Part shown: piece by piece, positions 16,966-45,972 of the stretch
How the letters are laid out: every line of letters starts with the position of its first letter
How positions within the stretch are numbered: position 1 is the stretch's first letter
Source of the DNA: Salinimicrobium profundisediminis
GTDB taxonomy: Bacteria; Bacteroidota; Bacteroidia; Flavobacteriales; Flavobacteriaceae
DNA length: 64,000 nt
Assembly: GCF_026241755.1 (NCBI RefSeq)
Contig: NZ_JAPJDA010000018.1
Location: 1-64,000, forward strand
Direction of reading: 5' to 3'
The notes under the pieces: model-generated
Seen by the model: only the letters and a program-made list of their open reading frames with translations
Database searches by the model: none
Told to the model about the DNA's origin: nothing
Translations under genes and position numbers: made by a program

Positions 16966-17000
16966 AATTTGAAGATTTGTGGATTTGAAGATTTGAAGAT
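16966..17000. repeat. Left octamer array of the scoA/scoB insert
   Basis: Four direct 8-nt units of consensus ATTTGAAR run from 6 nt upstream of the scoB start up to the stop codon of the four-helix-bundle gene. The array is inverted relative to the one at 17391-17416; the innermost 19 nt match its reverse complement at 17 positions. Confidence 0.8.
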
Positions 17001-17353
17001 TACTTTTTCTTACTTGTAGAAATGATTTTGGTAATGATCCTAATGATAGATTTTAGTTCTTTAGGCAATTCTGGATTAGGATCTGGATAATGAGGCGAGG
17101 CCTTACATAATCTTAGCCAATAGTCTGTCTCATCCGATTCCTTGGCTGCAATTTTAAATTTATGAATAAAATCAGCATTACTCTCGGCATTCTGAGCCTC
17201 CCAAACGTTTGCACCAATAGAAGTTCCGCTCCTGAAGAGCTGTGAAGCCATTTCGTACTTATGGAGAGATCGCAATTTTTCTGAATAATCAATAGCTTCT
17301 AAAGCAAAATTGAAGGTTTTGTCAACAATCAAATTCTCTTTGTCATCTCTCAT
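17000..17353 (-). CDS. Four-helix-bundle protein, S23/23S rRNA-IVS protein family (copy 1)
   Basis: A 117-residue all-helical protein of the family found in 23S rRNA intervening sequences and structurally related to Avd of diversity-generating retroelements. Typical blocks are FNFALEAIDYSEKLRSLHKY, LFRSGTSIGANVWEAQNAES and FIHKFKIAAKESDETDYWLR. It lies between scoA and scoB in the same direction. The stop codon lies at the edge of an array of ATTTGAAR octamers, and the inverse array lies upstream of its start, so the gene seems to have arrived as a unit. The molecular role of the family is poorly known; nucleic-acid binding has been suggested. It is 40-45% similar by eye to the copy at 40364-40702. 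Confidence 0.88.
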   Translation of the reverse strand: MRDDKENLIVDKTFNFALEAIDYSEKLRSLHKYEMASQLFRSGTSIGANVWEAQNAESNADFIHKFKIAAKESDETDYWLRLCKASPHYPDPNPELPKELKSIIRIITKIISTSKKK

Positions 17354-17390
17354 AAGTGCTAGTTTTAAAATTTCATTTTCAAATCATCTC

Positions 17391-17416
17391 ATCTTCAAAT
17401 TTTCAAATTTTCAAAT
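17391..17416. repeat. Right octamer array of the scoA/scoB insert
   Basis: Three 8-nt units of the reverse complement of ATTTGAAR lie just after the scoA stop (minus-strand sense) and before the four-helix-bundle gene. A further half-unit pattern reaches back to 17376. Together with 16966-17000 it frames the inserted ORF like imperfect terminal inverted repeats. Confidence 0.8.
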
Positions 17417-17423
17417 CACAGTA

Positions 17424-18122
17424 TTATTTTTTTCTTACAGTTCGCTGTTCAATTCGCTTCTCATAATCTTTTCCCTGGAAGATCCTTTGTACAAATATTC
17501 CGGGAATGTGGATTTGGTTGGGGTCGAGTTCTCCGGGTTCTACCAGCTCTTCAACTTCGACCACCGTCACTGCTGCGGCACCACACATCACAGGGTTGAA
17601 ATTACGGGCTGTACCTTTAAAAATGAGGTTTCCGGCCCTGTCTCCCTTCCATGCTTTTACGAAAGCAAAATCGGCTTTATAAGCTTCTTCCATGACGTAC
17701 ATCTTGCCGTTAAATTCCCGTGTCTCCTTACCCATGGCAACTTCGGTACCGTAACCGGCAGGAGTGTAGATGGCAGGAAAGCCCTGCTGTGCTGCCTGGC
17801 ATTTGGCTGCCAGCGTTCCCTGCGGCGTAAGCTCAACTTCAAGCTCACCACTTAACATTTGCCGCTCAAATTCGGCGTTCTCCCCCACGTAGGAAGAGAT
17901 CATTTTATCGATCTGTTTCTTCTGAAGCAGCAGGCCAAGACCAAAATCGTCTACCCCGGCATTATTGGAAATACAGGTGAGCTTCTTCAGGTTGAGACGA
18001 ACAAGTTCAGAAATGGCATTTTCGGGAATTCCACTTAATCCGAATCCTCCCAGCATAAAAGTCATTCCATCATGAACCCCCTCAAGTGCTTCAGTAACAT
18101 TCTGTACAGTTTTATTGATCAT
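17424..18122 (-). CDS. scoA: 3-oxoacid CoA-transferase subunit A
   Basis: A 232-residue alpha subunit of the CoA-transferase. The glycine-rich CoA-binding motif [13 protein letters not shown] is at about residues 25-37, followed by [32 protein letters not shown] and [20 protein letters not shown]. It works with the ScoB subunit encoded downstream in ketone-body or branched-chain acid metabolism. The next gene on this strand is the four-helix-bundle ORF rather than scoB, but all three point the same way, so transcription of scoB by readthrough remains possible. Confidence 0.93.
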
Positions 18123-33293: not shown

Positions 33294-34072
33294 TCTATGC
33301 TAATTTCTTCGTAGCCCGAAGGTATTGAAAAAGGAAAAGAAACAGGAACATTGAACTCAATGTTTCTAAAGGTCATATCAATACGGGTATTTTGGGTGCC
33401 TTCTGTAGCTATGATCTTGATTTGCAACGGGAAAAGCTGCCGGCCAATCTTCTGATATTCCGGGTAAGTGACTGTTACGCTCCTGTTGCCCTGCTCCTGC
33501 CCCAGTTGTTGTGCCAGGGCCTTAAAGTTTCCGGCGTCAAGAAGGAACATTCGCTTCAGGAAATTTTCCTGTTCAGGTTGCAGCTGGTAGCCTCTTGAAG
33601 ATTCCGTCAATTTATACCTTTCTTCCCTAAGGTCATAAATGGTTTGACCCAATAAAAGATTCTGAACCTTTTCATAATCCAGCGGAGTTCCCAGCAGGTC
33701 ACTTAATAGGCTGAAATCACCATCAAAATATGTCTTTGTGATTTTCTCATAGAACTGCACCGAATTTGGGGTGATCAAGACCTTAGCCAGCGGAATGCCC
33801 AGCAACTGCCCGCTCATCCAGATGGTATCATTCTTTTTCATCCTGAAATTCACTGTAACGCTCTGGCTTCGCTCTTCTGTCTGGTAATCGAGACTAAGCC
33901 TGCCCTGTAAGGTATTGAAGTCAACTTCTCTGTTGTAGTGCTGGTCAACAACAGCAGCAACAGCAGCATCTTCGGGGGCTACAGTCCCCATTTTTGCTTT
34001 ACGGGCGCCGCCGCAGGATGAGAATAGGATTAAGGAAATAAGAACTACGGGAATTAATTGTTTACAGGTCAT
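33290..34072 (-). CDS. DUF4292 lipoprotein
   Basis: A 260-residue lipoprotein. The signal is MTCKQLIPVVLISLILFSSC with the lipidated Cys at residue 20. The mature part is beta-rich (LQGRLSLDYQTEERSQSVTV; RMKKNDTIWMSGQLLGIPLA; VQFYEKITKTYFDGDFSLLS) and resembles LolA/LolB-like half-barrel lipoproteins. I recognise it as the Bacteroidota DUF4292 family. It probably sits in the outer membrane facing the periplasm. It lies between a TPR protein and the EnvC-like protein, overlapping the latter by 4 nt. A role in lipoprotein or LPS handling is a guess. Confidence 0.82.
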   Translation of the reverse strand: MTCKQLIPVVLISLILFSSCGGARKAKMGTVAPEDAAVAAVVDQHYNREVDFNTLQGRLSLDYQTEERSQSVTVNFRMKKNDTIWMSGQLLGIPLAKVLITPNSVQFYEKITKTYFDGDFSLLSDLLGTPLDYEKVQNLLLGQTIYDLREERYKLTESSRGYQLQPEQENFLKRMFLLDAGNFKALAQQLGQEQGNRSVTVTYPEYQKIGRQLFPLQIKIIATEGTQNTRIDMTFRNIEFNVPVSFPFSIPSGYEEISIE

Positions 34073-34078
34073 TCAGTA

Positions 34079-35437
34079 TTAATTTTCTAATTTTTCAGCT
34101 TTTTTTAGAGCTTCTGCAGCTTTTTCAGCTTTGTTAAGGCCTTTATATGTTATAGCGAGTTGACGGTGAAATTCCCATTCAGTTTCGGCATCATCAATGA
34201 GGTAATCCAGGCCTGTAAGAAGTATTTCTTCTGCTTTTTGATATTCCTTCAAGCCGTTAAGAGCATTTCCCTGCATGAGAAACAACCACGCCTGGGTGGG
34301 AAAAATTTCAAGACCTTTTTCAGTGAGTAATTTCACCTCTTCAAAATGCCCTTTTTCAGCCTCCAGTTTTATGACATTTCGATACAAATTAAAATCATCC
34401 ATGTCATTTTCAAGCGCAGTTTTAAAATAATTTAATGCCAGCTCCTTCTTCCCTTTTTCAATGAAGAAAGTGCCAAGCTGTTTATAGACCTTCAGGTTAT
34501 TTTCTTTTTCTGAAAAAGTCTCTACCAGTTGTATCAAATCTTCTTCCAAAGAAGGATTTTCGGTTACATAAATTAGAAAATCATTGAGCGCCTGGTACTT
34601 TGTGACTTCATCTATCTGGTCACTGTTAAGCAGAATTTCCATTGAGTTGACGGCCTTTTCAGCTTTATTATCGGCAATATAGAATTTGTAAAGGGCCAGG
34701 TGCACGAGCTGGGAACCGGGATTTATTTCCAACAGTTCCCTTGCAGTTGCAAAAGCTTCTTCTTCCTGCCCGTTTTCGCTGTAAACAAAGATAAGGTTGA
34801 GATAATCCTGTTCGTTTTTAGGGTTCTCTTCAATGTTTTCCTCTAAATCGCTTATCTGTGCCTCCACGTTGTTGGTACGGGCATAAACCTGCCGCCTCAA
34901 ACTTTCCCGGTAGGTGCTGGAACCTTTTACCTGGTCGAGCGAATCGAGAAGCCCAAGGGCCGCATCGTATTTTTCAGTCTGAATGTACAGGTTCACCAGG
35001 TCTTCTGAAAAAGCAGTATTCAACCGGGCCAGATCTCTTACCACCGGCAGTGCCTTTTTGAATTCCCTGCCCTCGAAGTAAGTGGTGTAAAGCTCCTCGA
35101 GCATTCCCTCATTCCCGGGCACTGCTTTTCGACCTTTTTCCAGATACACTGCAGCCTGGGAATATTGGCCAAGGGCATTATAGTTTTTACCCAGCTCAAG
35201 ATACACTACAGGTTCATCGGGCTTTAACGCCAGACTTTGCACCAGCTCATCTATCGCCTTTTCATGGTTTTCTATTGCCTTTTGCTTTAGCGCCTCAAAA
35301 AAATGCTCCTGAAAGGCATCTGTTACATTTCCCAGGTCATCCTGGGCCATTTCTACCACCGGTTTCTCCTGTGCATAGGAGATACTACCCAGCTGTAGCA
35401 GGGTCAAAAATGGTATTATGTAAAGCCTTTTTTTCAT
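34079..35437 (-). CDS. Periplasmic tetratricopeptide repeat protein
   Basis: A 452-residue protein with a Sec signal (MKKRLYIIPFLTLLQLGSIS, then YAQ). At least seven TPR-like helical pairs follow, for example PVVYLELGKNYNALGQYSQA, NEQDYLNLIFVYSENGQEEE and AWLFLMQGNALNGLKEYQKA. TPR proteins serve as scaffolds, so no specific function can be assigned. It is conserved in position between the nucleotidyltransferase and the DUF4292 lipoprotein, 6 nt before the latter, and is probably periplasmic. Confidence 0.85.
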   Translation of the reverse strand: MKKRLYIIPFLTLLQLGSISYAQEKPVVEMAQDDLGNVTDAFQEHFFEALKQKAIENHEKAIDELVQSLALKPDEPVVYLELGKNYNALGQYSQAAVYLEKGRKAVPGNEGMLEELYTTYFEGREFKKALPVVRDLARLNTAFSEDLVNLYIQTEKYDAALGLLDSLDQVKGSSTYRESLRRQVYARTNNVEAQISDLEENIEENPKNEQDYLNLIFVYSENGQEEEAFATARELLEINPGSQLVHLALYKFYIADNKAEKAVNSMEILLNSDQIDEVTKYQALNDFLIYVTENPSLEEDLIQLVETFSEKENNLKVYKQLGTFFIEKGKKELALNYFKTALENDMDDFNLYRNVIKLEAEKGHFEEVKLLTEKGLEIFPTQAWLFLMQGNALNGLKEYQKAEEILLTGLDYLIDDAETEWEFHRQLAITYKGLNKAEKAAEALKKAEKLEN

Positions 35438-35460
35438 GCATTTTTTAATGCTGCAAAGCG

Positions 35461-36471
35461 CTACTCCAGCACAGAGTAATCACCGATACTAATTTCGGTA
35501 AATTCACCATTGAACCTGGCAAAATTACCTATCATAGCGTTATTGAGATCTGCATTTTCTACTTCAGCAAAGGTTTGGATCAAACTGTTTTTAATGGTCG
35601 AGTTGCTTATTTTAGTTCCGTTTCCAATAGAAACATTGGGTCCTATTTTGGCATTTTTGAGCACCACGTTCTCACCAATGAAGCAGGGTTCAATAATTTC
35701 TGAATTTTCTATTTCTACGTTTGAAGCTACCAGCTTTTCACCATCTTCCTGAAGGAATTTAAGCATTCTGGTGTTGGTCTCTACAGTCACCTGCTTGTTA
35801 CCACAATCCATCCATTCATCAACCTTCCCCGGAACGAATCTCGCGCCTTTCTGCTTCATCGCCTCTATCCCGTCATTGATCTGGTACTCCCCGCCGCGAA
35901 TAATGTTATTATCAAGCACTCCCTGCAGTTCATCCTTAAGAATCGCTACATCCTTGAAGTAATAAATTCCAATTACAGCAAGGTCTGACACATATTCTGA
36001 AGGTTTTTCAACAAGATCAGTAATCTCCCGCTTCTCGTTTAACTGCACTACGCCGTATGCTGAAGGATTTTCTACCTGTTTTACCCATATCACCGCATCG
36101 GCTTCTTTATCTAACGTAAAATCGGCTTTAAAAAGTGTATCGGCATAAGCAATCACTGCGGGGCCTTCTAAAGAATCTTTGGCACACATAATAGCATGAC
36201 CGGTGCCAAGAGGTTTATCCTGATAATAAATGGTGCCCTTTGCGCCCAGGGTCTCTGCAATTTTCTTTAGGTCGGTTTCTACTTTTTCACCAAAATCTTC
36301 TCCAATGATAAAGGCAATTTCATCGATCTTTTCATCGAGAACTTTTGCGATATCTTCAACCAGCCTGTGAACAATGGGTTTCCCGGCAATGGGAATTAAA
36401 GGTTTTGGAACTGTTAAGGTATGTGGACGAAGCCGCGACCCGCGACCCGCCATGGGAACTATGATTTTCAT
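35461..36471 (-). CDS. Sugar-phosphate nucleotidyltransferase
   Basis: A 336-residue GT-A-fold nucleotidyltransferase similar to glucose-1-phosphate thymidylyl- or uridylyltransferases. The nucleotide-binding start MKIIVPMAGRGSRLRPHTLT is followed by VPKPLIPIAGKPI. VIWVKQVENPSAYGVVQLNE and GGEYQINDGIEAMKQKGARF continue the catalytic domain. The C-terminal ~90 residues form a short left-handed beta-helix (IGPNVSIGNGTKISNSTIKN), as in bifunctional or oligomerising members. It makes a nucleotide sugar for cell-surface polysaccharides. It lies in the envelope operon 23 nt ahead of the TPR gene. The exact sugar and NTP are not decidable by eye. Confidence 0.9.
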   Translation of the reverse strand: MKIIVPMAGRGSRLRPHTLTVPKPLIPIAGKPIVHRLVEDIAKVLDEKIDEIAFIIGEDFGEKVETDLKKIAETLGAKGTIYYQDKPLGTGHAIMCAKDSLEGPAVIAYADTLFKADFTLDKEADAVIWVKQVENPSAYGVVQLNEKREITDLVEKPSEYVSDLAVIGIYYFKDVAILKDELQGVLDNNIIRGGEYQINDGIEAMKQKGARFVPGKVDEWMDCGNKQVTVETNTRMLKFLQEDGEKLVASNVEIENSEIIEPCFIGENVVLKNAKIGPNVSIGNGTKISNSTIKNSLIQTFAEVENADLNNAMIGNFARFNGEFTEISIGDYSVLE

Positions 36472-36477
36472 TTTTTT

Positions 36478-36650
36478 AGTATTGAGTATTTAGTAGTGAG
36501 TAGTGAGATCTTAGGTTAAGATTCTTACTTACTAATGAATTTGTTCTTGATTTATTGTTTGTTGTTCCTTACACGGCTTTTAAGATCCTGATCACTGTTA
36601 ATTATTTACTGATCAAAACTGCCTACTGAACATTGAGCACTACGTACTAG
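36478..36650. repeat. Short spacer with inverted heptad arrays between dut and the nucleotidyltransferase
   Basis: 36478-36509 has 7-nt units of the form AGTANTG. 36607-36650 has heptads in the opposite orientation, reading AGTACGT, AGTGCTC and AGTAGGC on the minus strand. The array begins exactly at the dut stop codon and ends 6 nt before the next start. The interior (about 100 nt) has no ORF. It resembles a deletion derivative of the ORF-bearing inserts. Confidence 0.6.
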
Positions 36651-37078
36651 ACCCCCGTGCTTCCGAAGCCGCCGCTGCCGCGTGAAGTTTCTTCGAGGGT
36701 GTCAACTTCTTTCCAGGTGATGTGTTCGTGACGGGAAATCACCATCTGTGCAATGCGCTCCCCATCGTTTATCGTGAATTCTTCATTAGAAAGGTTCACC
36801 AGGATCACCCCAATTTCTCCCCGATAATCGGCGTCAATTGTGCCGGGAGAATTTAGTACCGTAATGCCTTTTTTGGCAGCCAACCCGCTGCGTGGGCGCA
36901 CCTGGGCTTCGTGGCCTACTGGAAGTTCAATGAAAAGCCCTGTTTTGACAATAGCCCGGGCTAGGGGTGCCAGGGTAACAGGTTCAGAAATATTGGCTCG
37001 CAGGTCCATCCCTGCAGATGATCCGGTTTCATAGGCCGGTAATTCGTGCTTTGATTTGTTAATTATCTTTACGTTCAT
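36647..37078 (-). CDS. dut: dUTP diphosphatase
   Basis: A 143-residue trimeric dUTPase that keeps uracil out of DNA and supplies dUMP. All five motifs are present: [43 protein letters not shown] and the C-terminal [11 protein letters not shown] that closes over the active site. The length fits the family. It is 32 nt after the flippase gene and belongs to the envelope operon by position. Confidence 0.97.
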
Positions 37079-37110
37079 GCTTTGTTAGTTTTCTTCGGAA
37101 GCAGTTCAAA

Positions 37111-38565
37111 TTATGACTTCTTCAAAAGCTGTTTTAACTGATCCTTTTCAGCGTAATAAATAAGGGCAAAAAAGATAAGGATTAATATACTTCCGAAGTA
37201 ATAATTATTTCTAAAAAGGTAGAAATAGATCCCCGAAAACGTGAGGGAAATGAGCAGGTAGCCGCCAATTCGCTTCAGGTCATAAGGAATGGGATAGTAT
37301 TTTCTTCCGAAGTAAAAAGAGAGCAACATCATGCTGCCATAGGCCACCATAGTTGCAACGGCCGACCCAACATAGCTGTAATAAGGAATAAGCCAGAAGT
37401 TAAGGATCAACGTAACTGCGGCTCCAAAAAGGGAGATATAGCCGGCAAATTTTGTGCGGTCGCTCACCTTATACCAAACCGAAAGATTGTGGTAAATACC
37501 CAGGAAAAAGTTTGCGGCCAGGATCATTGGTACCACCACCATGGCGTCCCAGTATGAGGAATCTCTAATGAGCAGCAATTTTAAAAGGTCAGAAAATATA
37601 GTAACCAGCACCAGGATAAGGGCTCCAAAAATGACAAAATATTTGGTGATTGTGGCGTAGGTTTGAGGCGCATTCTTTTCTTTGGCATGACTGAAGAAGA
37701 AAGGTTCAATCCCCAACCTGAAAGCCGTGGCAAAAAGCGTCATAAACAGGGCAAGCCGGTAACAGGCAGCATAGGCACCAACTTCAGACTTTGCAATATC
37801 CTGAGGCAACAGCCAGCCGAGCAGGATCTTATCAAACACTTCATTAATGACAAAACCTATCCCCGCAATTAAAATTGGGGTGCCGTAGGTGAGCATTTTT
37901 TTCCAAAGACCGCTGTTAAAAGTATATGGCAGTTTAAAATAAAATGGCAACATGACCAGGAGCGTTAGCCCACTGGCAACAAGGTTGGCAATGAAAATAT
38001 AGGCAATTTCGAAATTGGGAATGTACAGGGTCTCAAAAATGGAATTTTTGGATGCTAATTCTGGCAGATAGACAATGAAAAAGATATTGAGCCCGAGGTT
38101 AACAGCAACATTTCCAATCTTGATTGCAGCAAAAACACCTGGCCTTTCGGTAGCCCTAAGCCAGGCAAAAGGTATGGTCGCCAGAGCATCGAGTGCCAAA
38201 ATCAGGATCACGTAGAGCACGTAATGAGAGGCAATGGCCGTAGCAAAGGAAATTTCTTCCATAAAGAGGAAACCCAGCAGTAGAAATATGCAGGTAGAAC
38301 CTATTAATGAAAGTGCAGAGGTGGCTGTGACCTCTTTACGGAATTCTTCCTGATGAAAAAACCTGAAAAATGAGGTTTCCATCCCATAAGCGAGCAGCAC
38401 GTTAAAGACTGCCATCCAGGAAAAGACGATAGCTACTTCTCCAAAACCTTGGGTAGGAAGGTAAGCAGAATACAGCGGCAACAACAGGAATGATAGCATC
38501 CTGGGTACCACTGTAGCAACACCATAAACGACGGTTTGTTTAAATAGCTTCTGAAAGAGCGCCAA
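37111..38565 (-). CDS. Polysaccharide/oligosaccharide flippase (Wzx/MATE-like)
   Basis: A 484-residue inner-membrane protein with about 14 hydrophobic helices. The N-terminal FKQTVVYGVATVVPRMLSFL followed by LLPLYSAYLP is the typical start of the oligosaccharide-flippase family. ETSFFRFFHQE, YGTPILIAGIGFVINEVFDK and RLGIEPFFFSHAKE are conserved-looking blocks. It would turn lipid-linked glycans across the inner membrane. It is the first gene of the operon with dut, the nucleotidyltransferase, TPR protein, DUF4292 lipoprotein and EnvC-like protein, an order I recall from other Flavobacteriia. Confidence 0.9.
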   Translation of the reverse strand: MALFQKLFKQTVVYGVATVVPRMLSFLLLPLYSAYLPTQGFGEVAIVFSWMAVFNVLLAYGMETSFFRFFHQEEFRKEVTATSALSLIGSTCIFLLLGFLFMEEISFATAIASHYVLYVILILALDALATIPFAWLRATERPGVFAAIKIGNVAVNLGLNIFFIVYLPELASKNSIFETLYIPNFEIAYIFIANLVASGLTLLVMLPFYFKLPYTFNSGLWKKMLTYGTPILIAGIGFVINEVFDKILLGWLLPQDIAKSEVGAYAACYRLALFMTLFATAFRLGIEPFFFSHAKEKNAPQTYATITKYFVIFGALILVLVTIFSDLLKLLLIRDSSYWDAMVVVPMILAANFFLGIYHNLSVWYKVSDRTKFAGYISLFGAAVTLILNFWLIPYYSYVGSAVATMVAYGSMMLLSFYFGRKYYPIPYDLKRIGGYLLISLTFSGIYFYLFRNNYYFGSILILIFFALIYYAEKDQLKQLLKKS

Positions 38566-38600
38566 TAGTTTTTGCTTGAGAATTCCTCACAAATGTACTA

Positions 38601-39107
38601 TTAATGCTGAATGTTTTTAGGGTTTTTTAGGCGCACTTGTTCGCTGTCTTTTTTCTGAATATTTTTTATCCTGAAGAATTTTTCCTTACCGTTCCTGCTA
38701 TAGTGCACTACTGCCTCACCTTCGGCAAGTTCGAAAGGTATTTTCTCAATCATTTTTGGTACTTCGTTACCAAACTCCTTTTTTGGATCTTTATGCATAA
38801 CAAAATCCTTTGTTGCACCGGGAGTTTCAAATCGCGCCACGTAAAGGTCGGGGTTGGAAGGCTCAATTTCAAGTACACCTTTTCTTCCGCGGAAGTAAAC
38901 GGTATCCATCTTAATCTCTGAATTTGCCGCCACCGGAATGAACAGATTAAAACCTGAACCTGCGCCCCTCACGCCACCTGTCCAGGTAGTGTAAAAAGCT
39001 TCTCCCACAGCTTTGGGCGGCTCCTCCTGCAATTGCTTGCCATTGGCACAATTACTAAAGCTCATAAGGATTAAAAGGGCCGAAAAAGAGAAAAAAAATG
39101 GTTTCAT
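38601..39107 (-). CDS. Lipoprotein of unknown function
   Basis: A 168-residue lipoprotein I cannot assign. The signal is MKPFFFSFSALLILMSFSNC with the Cys at residue 20. The mature part is rich in beta-type segments (FYTTWTGGVRGAGSGFNLFI; DTVYFRGRKGVLEIEPSNPD) and ends in a Lys-rich tail. It may be an outer-membrane lipoprotein of the Bacteroidota surface. It stands 35 nt upstream of the flippase gene and may be transcribed with it. Confidence 0.75.
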   Translation of the reverse strand: MKPFFFSFSALLILMSFSNCANGKQLQEEPPKAVGEAFYTTWTGGVRGAGSGFNLFIPVAANSEIKMDTVYFRGRKGVLEIEPSNPDLYVARFETPGATKDFVMHKDPKKEFGNEVPKMIEKIPFELAEGEAVVHYSRNGKEKFFRIKNIQKKDSEQVRLKNPKNIQH

Positions 39108-39472
39108 CGCTTAAAGGAATTATAGGTTCAGGAGGTAGTACTCCAATTTTGATACCAATTATTTTTTAGACTTAAAATCGCTGCGAACAAAGAGTCGGGA
39201 GTCAAGACAGGTTCTTAAAGTTTAAATTAGGGCCTTTTTTTAATTTTCAATAAAACCCTTAAAAAAGAAAACTCCGTATCGGATGATACGGAGTTTCAAA
39301 AAGCTGAAATTTTCAGCAATAATTTTATTTATTCAAAGATTCAGGATTGGCTAATTTGACTCCGCTATCGCTACGTCCAATTGTCGCCGGCTGAATCTTT
39401 ATTTATTTAAAGATTCAGGATTGGCTAATTTGACTTCGCTATCGCTACGTCCAATTGTCGCCAGCTGAATCT
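39108..39472. other. Intergenic region after the atp operon (365 nt)
   Basis: From right to left it contains the 74-bp tandem duplication of the atpG 3' end, a small hairpin GCTGAAATTTTCAGC (39303-39317), the strong terminator at 39269-39296, and about 150 nt of AT-rich sequence upstream of the lipoprotein gene. A short AGTC-type heptad stretch is at 39191-39212. No ORF is believable. Confidence 0.6.
39269..39296 (-). terminator. Intrinsic terminator of the atp operon
   Basis: A perfect 12-bp stem (AAACTCCGTATC) with a GGAT loop is followed on the minus strand by TTTTCTTTTTTAAGG. It lies about 175 nt after the atpG stop, the extra distance being due to the tandem duplication. Confidence 0.88.
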
Positions 39473-39492
39473 TTATTTATTCAAAGCTTCAG
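39337..39492. repeat. 74-bp tandem repeat, duplication of the atpG 3' end
   Basis: Units at 39337-39410 and 39411-39484 differ at three positions. A third, partial unit begins at 39485 and is the last codons of atpG itself. Each unit holds a copy of the atpG end (with its stop) plus downstream sequence with GATTCAG...CTGAATC inverted ends, so the 3' untranslated region has been duplicated. Confidence 0.9.
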
Positions 39493-40333
39493 CTCCACCA
39501 ACAATTTCAAGAATTTCGTTGGTGATAGAAGCCTGTCTTGCTTTGTTGTAAGATAACTTCAGGGAATCTCTAAGTTCCTGTGCATTATCTGTTGCCTTGT
39601 GCATTGCAGTCATACGAGCCCCGTGTTCTGAAGCAAAAGAGTCACGCAGGGCTTTATAGACCTGCATTTTAAGAGATTTTGGAATAAGCTCCATCACGAT
39701 CTCCTCTTTTGAAGGTTCAAAAATGTAATCTAAGGTCACATTTTCATCTTTTTCAACAGGAACAATAGGCAAAAACTGCTCTACCTGCACTTCTTGAGTA
39801 GCGGCATTCTTAAACTGGTTGTACACCAAAACGATTCGGTCGAACCTGCCTTCTACAAAAAGGGTCATTAATTCTTTGGCAAGAGCTTCAGCATTCTCAA
39901 AACTAAGGTCGTCATAAATAGCGGTCTCGGTTTTGTAGATGTTGAAAGTTTTCTTCAGAATATCATTTGCCTTTTTTCCTACGCTGTAGAATTCTACGCT
40001 TTTATCGCTGTAATCGCGGTTTGCAACGTATTTTGATGCTTTTACGATATTGGAATTAAAAGCACCTGCCAATCCACGATTCGAGGAAATTGCTACCATA
40101 AGCACCTTGTTCACCTCACGTTGCTCGGCGTATTTGCTCGATTGGTCACTGTCTAGTGTCGCGCTGAGAGACTGAAGTAGTTCAGAAAGTTTTTCTGAAT
40201 AAGGACGCATAGCGGTAATGGCATCCTGCGCCTTGCTCAACTTTGCAGCCGATACCATTTTCATGGCACTGGTGATCTGCATGGTTGAAGACACCGAAGT
40301 AATCCTGCTTCTTAATTCTTTTAAATTGGCCAT
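39473..40333 (-). CDS. atpG: F-type ATP synthase gamma subunit
   Basis: A 286-residue gamma subunit, the rotating shaft of F1. The N-terminal ANLKELRSRITSVSSTMQIT followed by SAMKMVSAAKL and the C-terminal NKARQASITNEILEIVGGAE are the conserved helices that enter the alpha/beta hexamer. NRGLAGAFNSNIVK is the typical middle block. It is the last gene of the atpBEFHAG operon. A four-helix-bundle ORF and its flanking arrays lie between it and atpA, which are normally close. Its final codons and stop are repeated twice downstream. Confidence 0.96.
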   Translation of the reverse strand: MANLKELRSRITSVSSTMQITSAMKMVSAAKLSKAQDAITAMRPYSEKLSELLQSLSATLDSDQSSKYAEQREVNKVLMVAISSNRGLAGAFNSNIVKASKYVANRDYSDKSVEFYSVGKKANDILKKTFNIYKTETAIYDDLSFENAEALAKELMTLFVEGRFDRIVLVYNQFKNAATQEVQVEQFLPIVPVEKDENVTLDYIFEPSKEEIVMELIPKSLKMQVYKALRDSFASEHGARMTAMHKATDNAQELRDSLKLSYNKARQASITNEILEIVGGAEALNK

Positions 40334-40340
40334 TCTTTTT

Positions 40341-40371
40341 AGTTATGAGTTAAGAGTTGAGAGTTATGAGT
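40341..40371. repeat. Left heptad array of the atpA/atpG insert
   Basis: Four direct 7-nt units of form AGTTNNG lie 7 nt upstream of the atpG start. They contain the stop codon of the four-helix-bundle gene (40364-40366). Compared with the reverse complement of 40698-40722, 21 of 24 positions match. Confidence 0.85.
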
Positions 40372-40702
40372 TTTTTATTATTGAAACTATAATTCTTATC
40401 AACTCTTCACACTTAGCAATTAAAATTTTGCAATCAATATCCGAAGTTGCCTCTATTAGCTCTAACCAATATTTGGTTTCGTCGGCCTCTTTTAAAGCAA
40501 TACCGAATTTGTTTTTAAAATCTTTTGTACTTACTCCCCTTTGTGCTTCTCTAACATTGGCTCCAATACTAGTTCCACTTTTTAAAAGCTGGGAAGCCAG
40601 CTCAAATTCATTTCGTTTTTTCAAGGACCGGGTAAAGAGAACGATATCACAAGCAAACTGGAAACTTTTAATCCGAACCGGGCTATTTTCCAATTTGCTC
40701 AT
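40364..40702 (-). CDS. Four-helix-bundle protein, S23/23S rRNA-IVS protein family (copy 2)
   Basis: A 112-residue all-helical protein of the same family as the ORF at 17000-17353. Shared blocks are FELASQLLKSGTSIGANVRE and FKNKFGIALKEADETKYWLE. It stands between atpA and atpG, in the direction of the operon, and occupies the whole insert: both its ATG and its TAA lie inside the flanking inverted arrays of AGTTNNG heptads. The protein may bind nucleic acid; its function is not established. Codon use is somewhat more AT-rich and less biased than in the atp genes, consistent with later arrival. Confidence 0.9.
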   Translation of the reverse strand: MSKLENSPVRIKSFQFACDIVLFTRSLKKRNEFELASQLLKSGTSIGANVREAQRGVSTKDFKNKFGIALKEADETKYWLELIEATSDIDCKILIAKCEELIRIIVSIIKNS

Positions 40703-40722
40703 AACTCAAAACTTTTAACTCT
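40698..40722. repeat. Right heptad array of the atpA/atpG insert
   Basis: Three units of the reverse complement of AGTTNNG lie between the atpA stop and the four-helix-bundle gene and include its start codon at 40700-40702. With 40341-40371 it forms an imperfect terminal inverted repeat. Confidence 0.85.
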
Positions 40723-40733
40723 GCACTTGCATA

Positions 40734-42314
40734 CTACTTTTTATATTTAGCTGAAATCTCCTTAGCTACGTTTGTAAGCGTGTCGGTGAGTTCATCTGTA
40801 TACTTACCTGCTTTTAGTTGATCAAGTACATCTCTGTGCTTGGCATCAAGATATTCCAGGTAATCTTTTTCAAATTCTCTTACTTTCTCTACAGGAACGT
40901 TTCTCAACAGGTTCTTGGAACCGGCAAAGATAATCGCGATTTGGTTCTCTACAGGATAAGGGTTGTTCTCAGCCTGCTTAAGGATCTCCACGTTACGCTT
41001 ACCTTTTTCGATCACATTCAATGTTGCAGGATCAAGGTCTGACCCGAACTTGGCAAATGCTTCCAATTCACGGAACTGTGCCTGGTCAAGTTTAAGTGTA
41101 CCGGCAACTTTCTTCATCGACTTGATCTGCGCGGCACCACCCACACGTGATACAGAGATACCCACGTTAATTGCAGGACGCACCCCAGAGTTAAAAAGAT
41201 CGGATGTTAAGAAGATCTGCCCATCGGTAATTGAGATCACGTTGGTTGGGATATACGCCGAAACGTCACCCGCCTGTGTCTCAATAAGAGGAAGTGCGGT
41301 AAGCGATCCTCCACCTTTTACTTTGTCTTTCAAAACATCAGGAAGATCGTTCATGTTCTTCGCGATACTATCATCAGCAATCACTTTTGCAGCACGCTCA
41401 AGCAATCTTGAGTGAAGGAAGAAAACGTCTCCAGGATATGCCTCACGCCCCGGTGGACGTCTTAGAAGCAAAGATACCTCACGGTAAGCAACAGCCTGCT
41501 TTGAAAGATCATCATAAACGATCAATGCAGGACGACCTGTATCTCTAAAATACTCACCAATCGCAGCACCTGCAAATGGAGCATAAACCTGCATAGGAGC
41601 AGGATCGGATGCGTTTGCAGCTACGATAGTGGTATAGGCAAGAGCTCCTTTATCTTCAAGGGTCTTGGCGATACCTGCCACAGTAGAGGCTTTTTGCCCT
41701 ACAGCAACATATATACAATAAACAGGTTCCCCTGCATCGTAGAATTCTTTTTGATTTAGAATAGTATCGATAACCACTGTTGTCTTACCAGTTTGACGGT
41801 CACCAATTACAAGCTCCCGCTGTCCACGACCAATTGGTACCATGGCATCGATAGACTTAATTCCTGTTTGAAGCGGCTCGGTTACCGGCTGACGGTAAAT
41901 TACCCCCGGTGCCTTACGCTCTAATGGCATTTGGAATGTCTCACCCTGTATTGGTCCTTTTCCATCGATAGGCTGCCCAAGCGTGTCTACAACCCGTCCA
42001 ACAATTCCTTCTCCCACATTGATAGAAGCAATACGCTGAGTTCTCTTAACGGTTGCTCCTTCTTTTACCTGTTTGTATGGACCTAATAGTACTACCCCAA
42101 CATTGTCTTCTTCAAGGTTAAGTACAATTCCTTCCAATCCGCCTTCAAATTCAACTAACTCCCCGTATTGTGCATTGGAAAGTCCATAGACGTTAGCGAT
42201 ACCATCCCCAATATTGAGAACTGTACCAACTTCGTCAAGGGAAGCCTTAGCCTCAAACCCGGAAAGCTGTTTCTTTAATATTGCTGATACTTCAGCCGGA
42301 TTAATTTCTGCCAT
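40734..42314 (-). CDS. atpA: F-type ATP synthase alpha subunit
   Basis: A 526-residue alpha subunit of F1. The P-loop is GDRQTGKTT at about 170-178, and the signature [20 protein letters not shown] is complete, as are [20 protein letters not shown] and the arginine-finger region [18 protein letters not shown]. It forms the hexameric head with beta, whose gene is not in this window. It is preceded by atpH (44 nt) and followed by the inserted four-helix-bundle gene. Confidence 0.98.
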
Positions 42315-42358
42315 AATTATTTAGAATAAAATGCTACGCCCAGGCGCAGCGGTTTTAA

Positions 42359-42913
42359 TTAAATTTTTGCTACGTATGTATTGTTCTGTAATTCTCTTTT
42401 GAGACCTGTAAGCTGCGACTTCACACTTCCGTTATATTGGATGTCACCCACTCTTAAGATAAACCCGCCAATGATGCTCTCATCAACAATGTTCTCAATC
42501 TTAGCCTCATTTCCTGTTAGTTCCTTTACTTTTTGCTGAATCTTTGCCTCAAGTGCAGGAGTAAGCGGAATAGCCGTTGTAACCTTCGCTACATGTACTC
42601 CGTTCATCTCGTCATAAAGACGCTCATAACTTGATGCAACCAAAGGAAGGATGTTCAAACGATTGTTCTCAATTAGGATCTCAAATAATCCTGAAGTAAC
42701 GCCATTCACAGATTTAAAGATCTCTAAAAGGGCATTTTTCTTCATGGTATTTTTCACCACAGGGCTCTTCAAAAAAGCCTGGAGCTCTTCACTATCCTGT
42801 ATAGTCTTACTAATAAGAACCATATCGGCGTTTACCTCTCCAGTAACATTTTTGTCTTGCGCCAGGCTCAAAAGGGCTTTGGCATATCTCGCTGCTGCTC
42901 TACTTCCCTGCAT
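42359..42913 (-). CDS. atpH: F-type ATP synthase delta subunit
   Basis: A 184-residue delta subunit (OSCP-like) that joins the peripheral stalk to F1. The N-terminal six-helix domain starts RAAARYAKALLSLAQDK, and the C-terminal part has the conserved ENIVDESIIGGFILRVGDIQ segment. It starts 4 nt after the atpF stop and precedes atpA by 44 nt. Confidence 0.95.
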   Translation of the reverse strand: MQGSRAAARYAKALLSLAQDKNVTGEVNADMVLISKTIQDSEELQAFLKSPVVKNTMKKNALLEIFKSVNGVTSGLFEILIENNRLNILPLVASSYERLYDEMNGVHVAKVTTAIPLTPALEAKIQQKVKELTGNEAKIENIVDESIIGGFILRVGDIQYNGSVKSQLTGLKRELQNNTYVAKI

Positions 42914-42917
42914 CTTC

Positions 42918-43418
42918 TTAGTTTAAGGTAACATCATCAAGCATGTCTTCTACCAGCTTTTCTTGTTTGCCTTTGGAAGAAAGCTCTTCTCTTACCATTT
43001 TCTCGGCAATTTGAACAGATAGGGTAGCCACCTGATTCTTGATATCGGCCAGCGCTGAATTCTTCTCATTCTGAATAGTCGCTTTTGCCTGCTGGATCAT
43101 TTTCTCACCTTCTTTCTGGGCATCTTCTTTAGCTTCAGAAATCATTTTTTCTTTGATCTCTCTTGCCTCTTTGATCATAGCATCACGCTCCATACGGGCT
43201 TCCTGCAATAACTTCTCGTTATCGGCCTGAAGGTTTTGCATTTCCTTACGCGCATTTTCAGCCGAATCTAGGGCATCCTGTATTCCCTGCTCCCTTTCAT
43301 TCAGAGCATCTAATATAGGTTTCCATGCAAATTTTGCTAATAAGGCAACCAGCACAACTAAGATAATGATCTGCCAGAAAAACAATCCAAAAGAAAAATC
43401 GTTGACTAACTTTTCCAT
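42918..43418 (-). CDS. atpF: F-type ATP synthase b subunit
   Basis: A 166-residue peripheral-stalk subunit. One membrane helix is at the N-terminus (FGLFFWQIIILVVLVALLAK), and the rest is a long charged helix (EREQGIQDALDSAENARKEM and onward) that dimerises along the side of the enzyme. The length and layout are standard. It lies between atpE and atpH. Confidence 0.95.
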   Translation of the reverse strand: MEKLVNDFSFGLFFWQIIILVVLVALLAKFAWKPILDALNEREQGIQDALDSAENARKEMQNLQADNEKLLQEARMERDAMIKEAREIKEKMISEAKEDAQKEGEKMIQQAKATIQNEKNSALADIKNQVATLSVQIAEKMVREELSSKGKQEKLVEDMLDDVTLN

Positions 43419-43507
43419 ATTCTATCTTATTTCTTCTATTGTTTAATTTTTAAATAATTCAAGCCTTGCAGCCAACCGCTGCAAAGCCTGAAGTTCTTTC
43501 TGATTGA

Positions 43508-43705
43508 TTATACTGCAAAAAGAGCAGCAAAAGCAACACCTTCCAAAAGTGCAGCGATGATAATCATTGCAGTTTGGATTTTACCGGCAGCTTCTGGCTG
43601 ACGTGCAATTCCTTCCATTGCAGCGCTACCAATCTTACCAAGACCAAAACCAGCTCCAATAATAATTAAACCAGCTCCAATCAAATCTAAATTTAAGGCT
43701 TCCAT
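43508..43705 (-). CDS. atpE: F-type ATP synthase c subunit
   Basis: A 65-residue proteolipid of two membrane helices joined by the polar loop ARQPEA (Arg35-Gln-Pro). The ion-carrying carboxylate is Glu55 in AALLEGVAFA. This is short even for c subunits but complete. It forms the rotor ring in the membrane. Whether the ring moves protons or sodium cannot be fixed by eye; the residues that usually make a sodium site are not evident. Confidence 0.95.
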   Translation of the reverse strand: MEALNLDLIGAGLIIIGAGFGLGKIGSAAMEGIARQPEAAGKIQTAMIIIAALLEGVAFAALFAV

Positions 43706-43748
43706 ACTTACTTATTAAAAATTAAACTTACTCTTAAATGTGTTTATA

Positions 43749-44861
43749 TTATACTACGGGAATATCTTCATTGTCGGCAGGGTGATGATCATCATGCTCT
43801 TCAACCGCCATCCCTATGTAAAGGGCGCTAAGCAGGGTGAAGATATATGCCTGTAAAAAAGCTACCAGTAATTCAATTATAGAAATGAAAATAGTGAACC
43901 CAAAGAAAGCAGGTCCTGCGATCCAATTCTGGAATACCACGATCAATCCAAGAAGGGTCATAATAATCACGTGCCCTGCAGTCATGTTCGCAAAAAGTCG
44001 GATCATTAGGGCAAATGGCTTTGTGAACATCCCCAGCACTTCGATTGGTGCAAGGATGATCTTCATAGGCCACGGCACTCCCGGCATCCAGAAAATGTGT
44101 TTCCAGTAATCCTTATTTCCGCTGAACTGAACAATGAAAAATGTGATCAACGCCAAAGCCATGGTCACCGCGATATTCCCGGTCACGTTCACACCAAGTG
44201 GCGTCATTCCCAAAAGGTTAAGGATCCAGATAAAAAAGAAAACTGTTAATAAAAATCCGGTATATTTTCTATAGTTCTTCCCGATGTTGGGTTTCGCTAT
44301 CTCATCACGCACATACAATACAAGAGGCTCAAGCACTCTTCCTGACCCTTTTGGAATCTTACGGCTCTTATACTGTCGTGCCAAACCTCCAAATACAAGA
44401 AGCATTAGAATACTCACAACCAACATATAAAGTACATTCTTGGTTATAGAGAAATCAAGCGGACGTTCATTTGAAGGAAATCCATTCTCACCATAGGTGA
44501 TAGTACCCTCGGCATCAGTTTTATAGATCTTAGAATGATAAAGACGGTAATGTTGACCATCAATTACAGCAAGGTCTTCTCCATGATGGAATTTTCCTGA
44601 AGAAAAAACCTTCAACCCATCATCCCAAAGGATCACAGGAAGCGAAAAACCATAATGTGCGCCGGTTTCCCCGTCAGAAAAGAAATTTACATAATGAGAA
44701 TCTGCAAGGTGATGATCAATATAATCCTTAATTTCCTCTTCGGTATTGACCTTTGCATCGCCCCCTTCCTGAGGCTCTTTTGCAGTAAATGCCTGTGAAC
44801 TAATACTCACAAACATTAAAAGACAGGCTAATAAAAACTTCGCAACGTTTTCCTTTTGCAT
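43749..44861 (-). CDS. atpB: F-type ATP synthase a subunit with long N-terminal extension
   Basis: A 370-residue a subunit, the stator half-channel. The first ~24 residues look like a cleavable signal (FLLACLLMFVSISSQAFTA), followed by a ~110-residue exported domain rich in His and Asp, and then the membrane part. The essential arginine lies in ALMIRLFANMTAGHVIIM; IEVLGMFTKPFALMIRL and LQAYIFTLLSALYIGMA are conserved. Such extended a subunits are usual in Bacteroidota. It is the first gene of the atp operon and has a promoter box in front. Confidence 0.95.
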   Translation of the reverse strand: MQKENVAKFLLACLLMFVSISSQAFTAKEPQEGGDAKVNTEEEIKDYIDHHLADSHYVNFFSDGETGAHYGFSLPVILWDDGLKVFSSGKFHHGEDLAVIDGQHYRLYHSKIYKTDAEGTITYGENGFPSNERPLDFSITKNVLYMLVVSILMLLVFGGLARQYKSRKIPKGSGRVLEPLVLYVRDEIAKPNIGKNYRKYTGFLLTVFFFIWILNLLGMTPLGVNVTGNIAVTMALALITFFIVQFSGNKDYWKHIFWMPGVPWPMKIILAPIEVLGMFTKPFALMIRLFANMTAGHVIIMTLLGLIVVFQNWIAGPAFFGFTIFISIIELLVAFLQAYIFTLLSALYIGMAVEEHDDHHPADNEDIPVV

Positions 44862-44894
44862 TTTCGGGTGAATTACAGTCCTTTAATTTGGCTG

Positions 44895-44902
44895 CAAATG
44901 TA
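44895..44902 (-). promoter_or_regulatory. TAnnTTTG promoter box of the atpBEFHAG operon
   Basis: On the minus strand TACATTTG lies 33 nt upstream of the atpB start and follows an AT-rich tract. It is an exact match to the Bacteroidota -7 element. It places an independent transcript start after the small AtpI/AtpZ-like genes. Confidence 0.55.
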
Positions 44903-44967
44903 CATAATTATATAAAAAAACACAGCCTATGTTTCGTAATTGTTTTTTTGCCCTGTACTCGCCCTAA

Positions 44968-45372
44968 TTATCTGTCTTTCGAGAAGTTAGTTCGGTTGAG
45001 GATTTTCGCGATATAGATAATTTCCACCACCACAGAAAGCGCATAAGGAACAAAAAAATGTAAAAAGACAGATTTGTCCAGGTCAAATCCTGAAGTCTTG
45101 ATGAGGAAATAAAAGATTCCCAGCTTCACCATACCACTAATAAGAAATATAAATCCGAGTTGCTCTTTGAGGTGTGAGCTGGCTAAAATAATGGTAGAGG
45201 TAAAAAGCAGTGTGATGCCCACACAAAACTTATAAGCGAAATTTACAAGCTCCAGAGTTTGCCGCGAGAAATAGGAAGTGACAACAAAATAATGGATCCC
45301 ATAGCTCAATCCCGCAACAAGAAAAAGAAGGAGGACAAACCTGAAAAGATCTTTAAAAATAAGAGGATTCAA
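44968..45372 (-). CDS. Small four-helix membrane protein upstream of atpB, AtpI-like position (DUF6168-like)
   Basis: A 134-residue inner-membrane protein with four predicted helices (FRFVLLLFLVAGLSYGIHYF; FAYKFCVGITLLFTSTIILA; LGFIFLISGMVKLGIFYFLI; FFVPYALSVVVEIIYIAKIL). It has the size and place of AtpI, which helps assemble the c ring, and overlaps the AtpZ-like gene by 4 nt. I associate it with DUF6168 from memory. Function is inferred from position only. Confidence 0.7.
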   Translation of the reverse strand: MNPLIFKDLFRFVLLLFLVAGLSYGIHYFVVTSYFSRQTLELVNFAYKFCVGITLLFTSTIILASSHLKEQLGFIFLISGMVKLGIFYFLIKTSGFDLDKSVFLHFFVPYALSVVVEIIYIAKILNRTNFSKDR

Positions 45373-45599
45373 TTGTTGTAACGTTTAAGCTGTTTTAAAA
45401 CGACGTAAACTGAAGCTACCAGGCCAAAAAGTACAAAGCCTATAGTAAACCAGTTCTTTTCCATGGGGTATCTTTCATCCAGCTTTTTCCCTATCCATGC
45501 ACACAAAAAAATTGTGGCACCCATTTGAAAGGCAATCCCGGTAAATACCGCCCAGTTTTTAAGCTGACTGTTCTTGTTCTTTTCTTTCTCCTCTTTCAT
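45369..45599 (-). CDS. AtpZ/AtpI family protein
   Basis: A 76-residue protein with two membrane helices (WAVFTGIAFQMGATIFLCAW and WFTIGFVLFGLVASVYVVLK) separated by IGKKLDERYPMEKN. The pair GIAFQMGATI...GKKLD is typical of AtpZ/AtpI proteins encoded next to ATP synthase operons, which are linked to ion uptake and c-ring assembly. Its start lies 41 nt inside the bactofilin gene, and its stop overlaps the next start. Confidence 0.82.
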   Translation of the reverse strand: MKEEKEKNKNSQLKNWAVFTGIAFQMGATIFLCAWIGKKLDERYPMEKNWFTIGFVLFGLVASVYVVLKQLKRYNN

Positions 45600-45972
45600 T
45601 GTGAATCGCTTTCACGCCGCCACGCATGGTACAGGTGGCATTAAATGTTGCGCCCGGCTCTACGGCCAGCCTCGCAACTACGGCTTCCCCATCTATAACA
45701 GCAGTACTTCTTAAGCTTAAGGTGCCCGTAATTTTCAGTTTTCCGTTGAATTTACCTTCAATATCGGCATTTTCGCAACTCAACTCTCCTGTTACAAAAC
45801 CATCTTTGCCAATAACTACTTTTCCGGGGGTTTTGACCGTTCCTTCCACATGCCCATCAATTCGAAAACAGCCTTTAGCTTCAATGTTTCCGGTAATTTT
45901 TGTGCCCTGGGAAATCTTGTTTTGTTCCTTGCTGTTTTCTTTTACCTGCTTTGCTTTTTCCTGCTTAAACAT
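45559..45972 (-). CDS. Bactofilin (polymer-forming cytoskeletal protein)
   Basis: A 137-residue bactofilin. After a Lys/Glu-rich N-terminus the core is a right-handed beta-helix of short Gly-rich turns (GTKITGNIEAKGCFRIDGHV; GEAVVARLAVEPGATFNATC). Bactofilins form filaments on membranes and localise cell-wall or motility proteins. It overlaps the sprE stop by 1 nt upstream and the AtpZ-like gene by 41 nt downstream, so gliding, cytoskeletal and ATP synthase accessory genes are translated from one message here. Confidence 0.9.
   Translation of the reverse strand: MFKQEKAKQVKENSKEQNKISQGTKITGNIEAKGCFRIDGHVEGTVKTPGKVVIGKDGFVTGELSCENADIEGKFNGKLKITGTLSLRSTAVIDGEAVVARLAVEPGATFNATCTMRGGVKAIHNERGERKEQEQSA

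Follow-up and report, generated by a model that had tools for sequence, protein, structure and literature searches.

A candidate stem-loop cassette: short-unit repeat arms around an S23-family gene at the atpA-atpG junction of Salinimicrobium profundisediminis

Between two subunit genes of the ATP synthase operon of Salinimicrobium profundisediminis lies a small gene enclosed by two oppositely oriented arrays of short repeats. What kind of unit is this, and why does it sit where one cistron ends and the next begins? We approached the question from the structure of the locus itself, from other copies of the gene and its arrays in the genus and in more distant bacteria, and from the variation of single junctions between species.

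The element between atpA and atpG

The window, by which we mean the whole 64,000-nt stretch analyzed (positions 1 to 64,000 of contig NZ_JAPJDA010000018.1), contains an ATP synthase operon in which the delta, b, and a subunit genes precede atpA in the usual order (all genes named from their translations). Between atpA (40734..42314), the upstream host gene, and atpG (39473..40333), the downstream one, is an open reading frame (ORF) of 112 amino acids (40364..40702); these three and the two repeat arms are on the minus strand. The left arm, which is 5′ of the ORF in the ORF sense (40698..40721), starts 12 nt from the end of atpA, consists of 7-nt units, is G rich and C poor on the coding strand, and holds the ORF ATG (40700-40702). 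The right arm (40341..40372), a tandem array of period 7 with 4.6 units (TRF score, 43), is C rich and G poor on the coding strand, holds the TAA (40364-40366), and ends 7 nt before the atpG start. The best ungapped arm pair, 40347-40370 with 40698-40721, is 24 nt long and complementary at 21 of 24 positions (88%), with a spacing of 327 nt. In the predicted RNA fold of the element (−97.5 kcal/mol; z, −3.5), the arms pair with each other and close it entirely. The inverted heptad arrays, their coordinates, the 21-of-24 match, and the placement of one codon in each array had been given in a preliminary description made from the sequence letters, and all were borne out by repeat and inverted-pair analysis; the ORF listing likewise agreed with its statement that the ORF is codirectional with an operon of standard gene order. 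Having the start and stop codons inside the arrays is a trait of the atp copy and not of the element class. A separate 74-nt unit in 2.3 tandem copies (39324-39492; 94% matches) spans the atpG 3′ end and the sequence that follows.

The encoded protein belongs to the TIGR02436/PF05635 four-helix-bundle family (S23p, 23S rRNA IVP): profile searches matched it to PF05635 at 5.5e-22 and 78.4 bits (cut-off, 33.8) and to TIGR02436 at 1.3e-27 and 96.2 bits (cut-off, 24). Its AlphaFold model has four helices (mean pLDDT, 94.6). The top Foldseek match of the model was the S23-family structure 2rld (TM by query, 0.86 to 0.91), and a second S23-family structure, 2gsc, gave 0.72 to 0.87. Of the family background offered in the preliminary description, the tie to 23S rRNA intervening sequences stands, while the resemblance to Avd of diversity-generating retroelements is weak and not significant (4dwl and 8ub7; TM, 0.63 to 0.69; E above 2). 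According to the literature, a solved relative of the protein is a pentamer. Libraries of defense-system and phage proteins contained no match. The atp copy, situated between atpA and atpG, is not inserted in a 23S rRNA gene, and an Rfam search of the window produced no match at the gathering score.

A second family ORF (17000..17353, minus strand; 117 aa, also by profile match) sits between CoA-transferase subunit genes (17424-18122 and 16306-16959, named from translations). Its left arm (17373..17418, minus strand) has a tandem period of 8 (or 16) and its right arm (16967..17001, minus strand) a period of 8; the right arm is 80% complementary to 17382-17416 over 35 nt, and the RNA fold has a z score of −2.5. 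The tandem-repeat scan further located a 7-nt array (36475..36507, minus strand) before a nucleotidyltransferase-like gene (35461-36471). A degenerate opposite array, recognized by eye at about 36600-36650 after a dut-like gene, faces it with no ORF between them. This region contained no inverted pair of at least 14 nt and folded with a z score of only −1.06; the two arrays are at best a decayed ORF-less pair.

Copies of the gene, their arrays, and the junctions they occupy

The source genome of the window (G000; 4.04 Mb in 101 contigs) holds 15 family matches, two of them in the window. Twelve genus genomes gave 121 matching rows, with 0 to 17 per genome and 11 genomes positive, and joining split pieces reduced these to 117 copies (one of two pieces on contig C15 of G002 was kept; loci L129-L134 and L265-L268 fall outside the analyzed set). 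A significant tandem period was detected upstream of 84 and downstream of 92 of the 117 copies, with 7 or 14 dominant and 8 next. A second test used fixed periods of 7, 8, 9, and 14 and slightly different flanks, and its controls were 315 other genes from a 400-kb sample of the relative G010. Here, arrays were found upstream of 87 of the 117 copies and 10 of the 315 controls and downstream of 95 copies and 24 controls. Arrays on both sides, which the preliminary description had led us to expect at other family copies, were present in 75 of 117 copies versus none of the 315 ordinary genes and none of the 77 control genes of 80 to 160 aa.

The units are mostly 7 nt long, also 8 or 9 nt, and their sequence differs between loci; no end sequence is common to all copies. 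An arm match at the 99th percentile of cross-locus matches was reached in only 27 of 117 copies, because units at different loci resemble each other, and with other flanks 86 of 117 reached the 95th percentile. In the L014 and L010 groups the arrays are direct rather than inverted. Two elements with different units can flank one gene of the same operon, as do L041 and L049 of G003 (sites 26 and 61), whose loci overlap by 1,670 identical bases.

Both neighbors were codirectional with the ORF in 98 of 117 copies by a simple longest-frame call. Among the 133 of 197 loci with a codirectional upstream gene and a clear array, the array started at a median of 1 nt past the upstream stop codon (92 within −9 to +15). 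The end of the downstream array, measured in 98 cases, preceded the following start codon by a median of 5.5 nt. Since the arrays start at the stop and end before the start, the element fills the stop-to-start space. In the 72 copies with a good arm match, the left arm had more G than C in 58 (the reverse in 12) and the right arm more C than G in 58 (the reverse in 11).

A single site can carry different units in different species, with the two arms shifting together. Where different ORF lineages occupy the same site, the two arms of a copy matched each other better than they matched arms from other species in 116 and worse in 15 of 134 comparisons; counted by copy, the own arm was better in 62 and worse in 40 of the 107 copies with same-site partners (P = 0.005). 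The accB-accC junction supplies 11 of 21 loci in the Luteimonas-family set, and the ORFs there are visibly related. At this junction, own arms scored above the average of the rest in 10 of 11 cases, and the own right arm was the best in 5 of 11 (permutation P = 0.0002). Left and right periods agreed in 63 of 73 copies, against a shuffle mean of 55. In 77 of 117 copies, the minimum-energy RNA fold contained 15 or more base pairs between the left and right flanks; with the right flank swapped for that of another site, 104 of 351 folds (30%) still did so. Selection on the stem and fold-back copying between the arms would both yield such co-variation.

Across 11 species, site 26, whose flanks look like fatty-acid oxidation genes, shows four families of units and three types of ORF, a mix that rules out a unit strictly bound to a protein subfamily or site; moreover, a single ORF cluster is bordered by one unit at site 26 and by another at site 61. 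A weaker link between unit and ORF cluster seems to remain, judging from right-arm likeness across sites and genomes, which was 20.6 within clusters (n = 81) versus 10.9 between clusters (n = 5,758) after exclusion of same-site values, which the flanking gene inflates.

The layout extends well beyond the genus. A scan of named genomes gave at least 584 loci, and the best 80 by likeness to the query comprised 44 from Bacteroidota and 36 others, the latter including L158, for which no phylum is given. Within these 80, an array of period 7, 8, or 14 lay on at least one side of 35 of the 44 Bacteroidota loci and 32 of the 36 others, and inverted similarity reached P ≤ 0.02 in 30 and 32, respectively. 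Three further sets were scored at periods 7, 8, 9, and 14. The family set of a Luteimonas genome, which we take to be in the Xanthomonadaceae, had an array on at least one side of 18 of 21 loci and on both sides of 15; the corresponding values were 27 of 28 and 22 in the phylum set of a Gastranaerophilales genome (presumably Cyanobacteriota in GTDB) and 19 of 20 and 18 in a set of eight genomes behind earlier loci. Eight loci in the further sets repeat the 80-locus set (L309, L310, L311, L312, L313, L314, L315, and L321), the fragments L327, L330, L332, L352, L355, L377, and L378 and rows without a locus are left out, and L364 and L380, which look like duplicates, are both counted. No family match turned up in 14 well-known genomes searched as controls. 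Recurrence of this layout in very different bacteria suggests a widespread and little-noticed kind of transferable element.

Two simpler ideas about the arrays and the loci that lack them were rejected. An all-frame stop signal, which presupposes periods not divisible by 3, is ruled out by the period-9 arrays of L159, L163, and L190. That array-poor loci are rRNA insertions found no support in an Rfam search of 20 further family loci, mostly ones with weak arrays, none of which had a match at the gathering score.

The family gene is present on 29 plasmid records, many of them cyanobacterial, and was found on no phage record. By annotation, two Calothrix plasmid copies have their neighboring gene order in common, so they are no proof of an element moving alone. 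In L410 and L411, on Calothrix brevissima plasmids, the S23 gene follows a phage-integrase-family gene in what annotation presents as apparently one gene block.

Turnover, transfer, and relocation

The atp junction proved variable among relatives, a point in favor of the preliminary description. The 12 genomes have the ORF with arrays in 6 (one of them, the G010 copy L017/L125, split by a frameshift), an ORF-less pair in 3, a short remnant in 1, and neither in 2, and the unit of the ORF-less pairs is another than that of the ORF-bearing copies. Synonymous divergence (dS) from the window genome was 0.80 to 1.05 for the atp ORF (four pairs) and 0.75 to 0.80 for atpA (three pairs; G001 atpA comparisons, being out of register, were left out), and atpG values were higher than both where computable (1.11 and 1.91). 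For G003/G005 and G005/G011, the ORF gave 0.23 and 0.38 and atpA 0.76 and 0.75. Because its dS is close to that of atpA, the atp copy appears to be mostly vertical, with some recombination.

Four genomes of sister species were compared at 8 sites in all, not each genome at each site. At an sdhA-sdhB-like junction and at site 61, the ORF is present in a single genome and three others carry ORF-less pairs, which at the former include one of period 8. Site 33 is evenly divided: two genomes carry the ORF between arrays of 7-nt units, and two carry an 8-nt pair that encloses no ORF. Sites 78 and 109 retain one array, and by eye there was no array at sites 2 (G004 and G007) and 75 (G004, where the match may be a paralogue at 79% identity). 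None of these junctions offered a clean empty site that would permit a target-duplication reading, and neither the empty site nor the duplication named in the preliminary description was found. Sister species mostly carry another array pair or one array instead, which speaks against simple insertion into an empty site.

Exchange between species is best seen at site 26. The sister genomes G004 and G007 are 98% identical in atpA and, around site 26, 94% identical upstream and 99% just downstream, and their ORFs at this site are of different types with 54% identity. In two of the three ORF types, the ORFs are 89 to 93% identical between species, and their dS of 0.30 to 0.67 compares with 0.91 to 1.95 for the upstream gene (8 of 9 pairs, where both genes were computable). 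The third type, in its sole computable pair (G000/G004), had no excess likeness (0.61 versus 0.69). The divergences of the first two types indicate that ORFs at site 26 have undergone lateral replacement between species. Identity between G004 and G007 falls over the 3′-terminal 200 nt of the upstream gene, so homologous recombination with short flanks would be enough for the transfer. The operon half of the earlier claim that the unit enters operons is supported by the codirectional neighbors of most copies; the entry half is less secure, the site 26 transfer being explicable by recombination. That the unit would leave downstream expression unblocked is a prediction of the preliminary description.

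The best evidence that ORF and arrays have relocated without their flanks comes from alignments within the L010 group at unrelated sites. L101 aligns with L097, which occupies an unrelated position, at 83% identity over 438 bp, and two of four matches extend outside that block, both of them array matches, of 20 and 22 nt (flanks compared, 700/700 and 700/377 nt). The alignment of L101 with L095 takes in the ORF and arrays (86% identity over 509 bp), and each of the 12 outside matches listed involves an array on the L101 side. These copies lie in apparent polysaccharide gene clusters, which shuffle anyway, and their arrays are direct beside the ORF. The characterization of the atp unit as compact and mobile or formerly mobile therefore holds in part: relocation in the L010 group and arrays at other copies speak for it, and the mostly vertical descent of the atp copy itself speaks against it.

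Arrays also occur without the gene. Among 31 tandem segments in the window plus 400 kb of G010, 19 had period 7 and three had period 8. Clear ORF-less inverted pairs include one between tRNA-like genes in L139 and one at site 33 in L146. A sample of 379 kb from nine genomes with 0 or 1 family matches held 1 intergenic 7/8-nt array; a 400-kb sample from nine genomes with at least 5 matches held 11, distributed over 8 separate places, and 400 kb of G010 held 15. Counting was by places because four arrays of G042 lie within 460 bases; 1 versus 8 places gives a binomial P of 0.02 (0.004 by single arrays), with size and lineage uncontrolled. Arrays of other periods numbered 3 in the match-poor and 7 in the match-rich genomes. 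Three of the nine match-rich genomes (G049, G036, and G015) had no intergenic 7/8-nt array in samples of 20 to 60 kb. The surroundings of a period-7 array at L142:2277-2317 (G010) look coding, perhaps for a tRNA synthetase; arrays may sometimes be intragenic.

Explanations and known systems

The reading that we favor, tentatively and with confidence just short of even, is that the atp feature is one copy of a widespread stem-loop cassette in mRNA operon junctions, related to the intervening sequences (IVS) of 23S rRNA. Such a cassette would consist of a single four-helix-bundle gene with an arm of short units (mostly 7, also 8 or 9 nt) on either side, the two arms in opposite orientation, and would occupy the gap from an operon gene's stop codon to the following start codon. 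Once transcribed with the operon, these arms would pair into a long closing stem, predicted to be cut by RNase III as in the 23S rRNA IVS, and stop-to-start junctions may tolerate the element because a cut there should harm neither cistron. Since the unit is free and the pairing is kept, the protein most likely recognizes the stem by its shape and not its sequence. It would most likely promote the persistence or spread of the cassette and of ORF-less forms derived from it, and between species the cassette may travel partly via recombination at conserved flanking genes.

A bolder version, possible in our view if rather unlikely, makes this a mobile class defined by structure. Any unit would work provided that the inverted end arrays pair; the protein would recognize the stem and mobilize its own cassette and ORF-less copies into stop-to-start junctions across bacteria; the heptamers described from Xanthomonas, Nostoc, Beggiatoaceae, and Bacteroidetes would then count as copies without an ORF, and the IVS of 23S rRNA as a specialized branch.

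It is unlikely, although it deserves real weight, that the element is instead a host regulatory module, in which array hairpins would set mRNA processing, stability, or translation, the protein would be a host RNA-binding regulator encoded within its own target, and nothing would be mobile beyond ordinary recombination. Median dN/dS over 43 same-site pairs was 0.06, with one pair at or above 1, and in-frame stops occur in 17 of 117 copies. Judged by these ratios, the ORF is under purifying selection, so the family protein matters to something while it is present. Selection of this strength suits a regulator, as do the fixed stop-to-start position, the ORF-less array pairs in many operons and between tRNA-like genes, the rarity of arrays in sampled genomes without the gene, the mostly vertical atp copy, and the GGGAATC heptamers that PMC4692102, in the parts available, places near stop and start codons and describes as mostly transcribed. 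A module of this kind is harder to reconcile with erratic presence at a given junction among sister species, with different ORF lineages at one site, and with copies at unrelated sites that are alike only over ORF and arrays, and free change of unit and period would be odd for a conserved regulator.

Alternatively, the arrays may have come first, through slippage and template switching in operon spacers, with fold-back copying making and homogenizing the inverted arms and the gene riding as a passenger. Fold-back copying would give arm co-variation without selection, ORF-less arrays are common, and copy number and unit change fast at one site, all as expected of such a process. We nevertheless consider it improbable, because a passenger does not readily explain why arrays on both sides mark family copies and no control gene, in many phyla, or why array density is lower in sampled genomes without the gene.

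MITEs and REPINs with RAYT transposases are short intergenic inverted-repeat units, some without an ORF. An RVT_1 match was found in 6 of 12 genus genomes and was absent from the others, including G001 (17 family matches), and a Y1_Tnp match was absent from G009 (11 family matches), so the elements can occur in a genome without a resident reverse transcriptase and in one without a resident Y1 transposase. Arrays on both sides were seen in none of the 21 Y1_Tnp loci tested (of 24; L394, L408, and L409 were left out), and on these grounds a reverse transcriptase or Y1 transposase is not supported as the mover. Movement of the cassettes in trans, as MITE- or REPIN-like repeats, by a resident Y1/RAYT transposase or reverse transcriptase would fit their inverted ends, intergenic positions, ORF-less copies, and weak Avd fold likeness, but it is very improbable given these counts, the want of any link to Y1 transposase genes, and the differing ends of the copies, in which the cassettes depart from MITEs and REPINs. 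The sole RVT_1 match of the window genome, L385 (G000:C44:1369-1992), is a group II intron-like reverse transcriptase on another contig; its neighboring ORFs look Bacillus-like, and this contig is possibly a contaminant (contamination listed for the genome, 2.46%).

If the preferred cassette, or its bolder version, is right, it would represent a class of bacterial transferable elements whose ends are recognized by pairing rather than by sequence, the role of S23p would become testable as binding or processing of array hairpins, and the copies would provide natural data on stems whose arms co-vary while their sequence is free.

In the accessible parts of PMC4990558, the 23S rRNA IVS with an S23p ORF is cut by RNase III and is reported to undergo reductive evolution. 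The cassette has in common with it the protein family, an ORF set in the stem of complementary ends, and an uneven, partly horizontal distribution. It differs in lying at mRNA operon junctions, in having locus-specific tandem arrays of 7- to 9-nt units as arms, and in an ORF under strong purifying selection; RNase III cutting, shown for the IVS, is here a prediction. With Avd it shares the plan of a small four-helix bundle with a weak structural match, and unlike the Avd system it has no recognized reverse transcriptase beside the atp ORF, among ORFs of at least 80 aa at 34000-46000.

Two sets of published heptamer repeats bear on the ORF-less arrays. The available text of PMC4692102 describes GGGNATC arrays of Xanthomonas and Nostoc between codirectional genes, near stop and start codons, with oppositely oriented pairs close together in 70 cases (Xcc) and 75 cases (Xac); that paper treats the repeats as G-quadruplex repeats and states that mobile elements generally did not accompany them. 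Among the family loci, L216/L313 (Luteimonas) and L338 have GGGAATC as their unit too. According to the available text of PMC4679880, TAACTGA heptamers of Beggiatoaceae, Cyanobacteria, and Bacteroidetes repeat a single unit in direct orientation and may have a role in translation, and they resemble our arrays in lying just 5′ of start codons, in similar taxa, with strain-specific turnover and 7-nt indels; a passage on a helix in that paper concerns the peptide read from the repeat. The term S23 is absent from the main text of both papers. Because the unit length is the same, the positions are similar, and many GGGNATC arrays form inverted pairs, we think both repeats are likely ORF-less members of the cassette class.

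A figure legend in PMC10910872, a CRISPR-discovery paper, includes "23S rRNA IVP" among abbreviations of CRISPR-module associations; array-bearing loci might be mistaken for CRISPR-like repeats. In the open-access literature, judged by the best-ranked matches and with subscription papers and preprints outside the scope, we found no link of TIGR02436/PF05635 genes to such arrays. As far as that literature shows, the fold, the family, and the plan of an ORF in a stem are known; apparently undescribed are the paired arrays specific to each locus, their setting in operons, and the breadth of the layout. The comparison ties together the puzzle of S23p function, the 23S rRNA IVS, and the unexplained heptamer repeats of several phyla.
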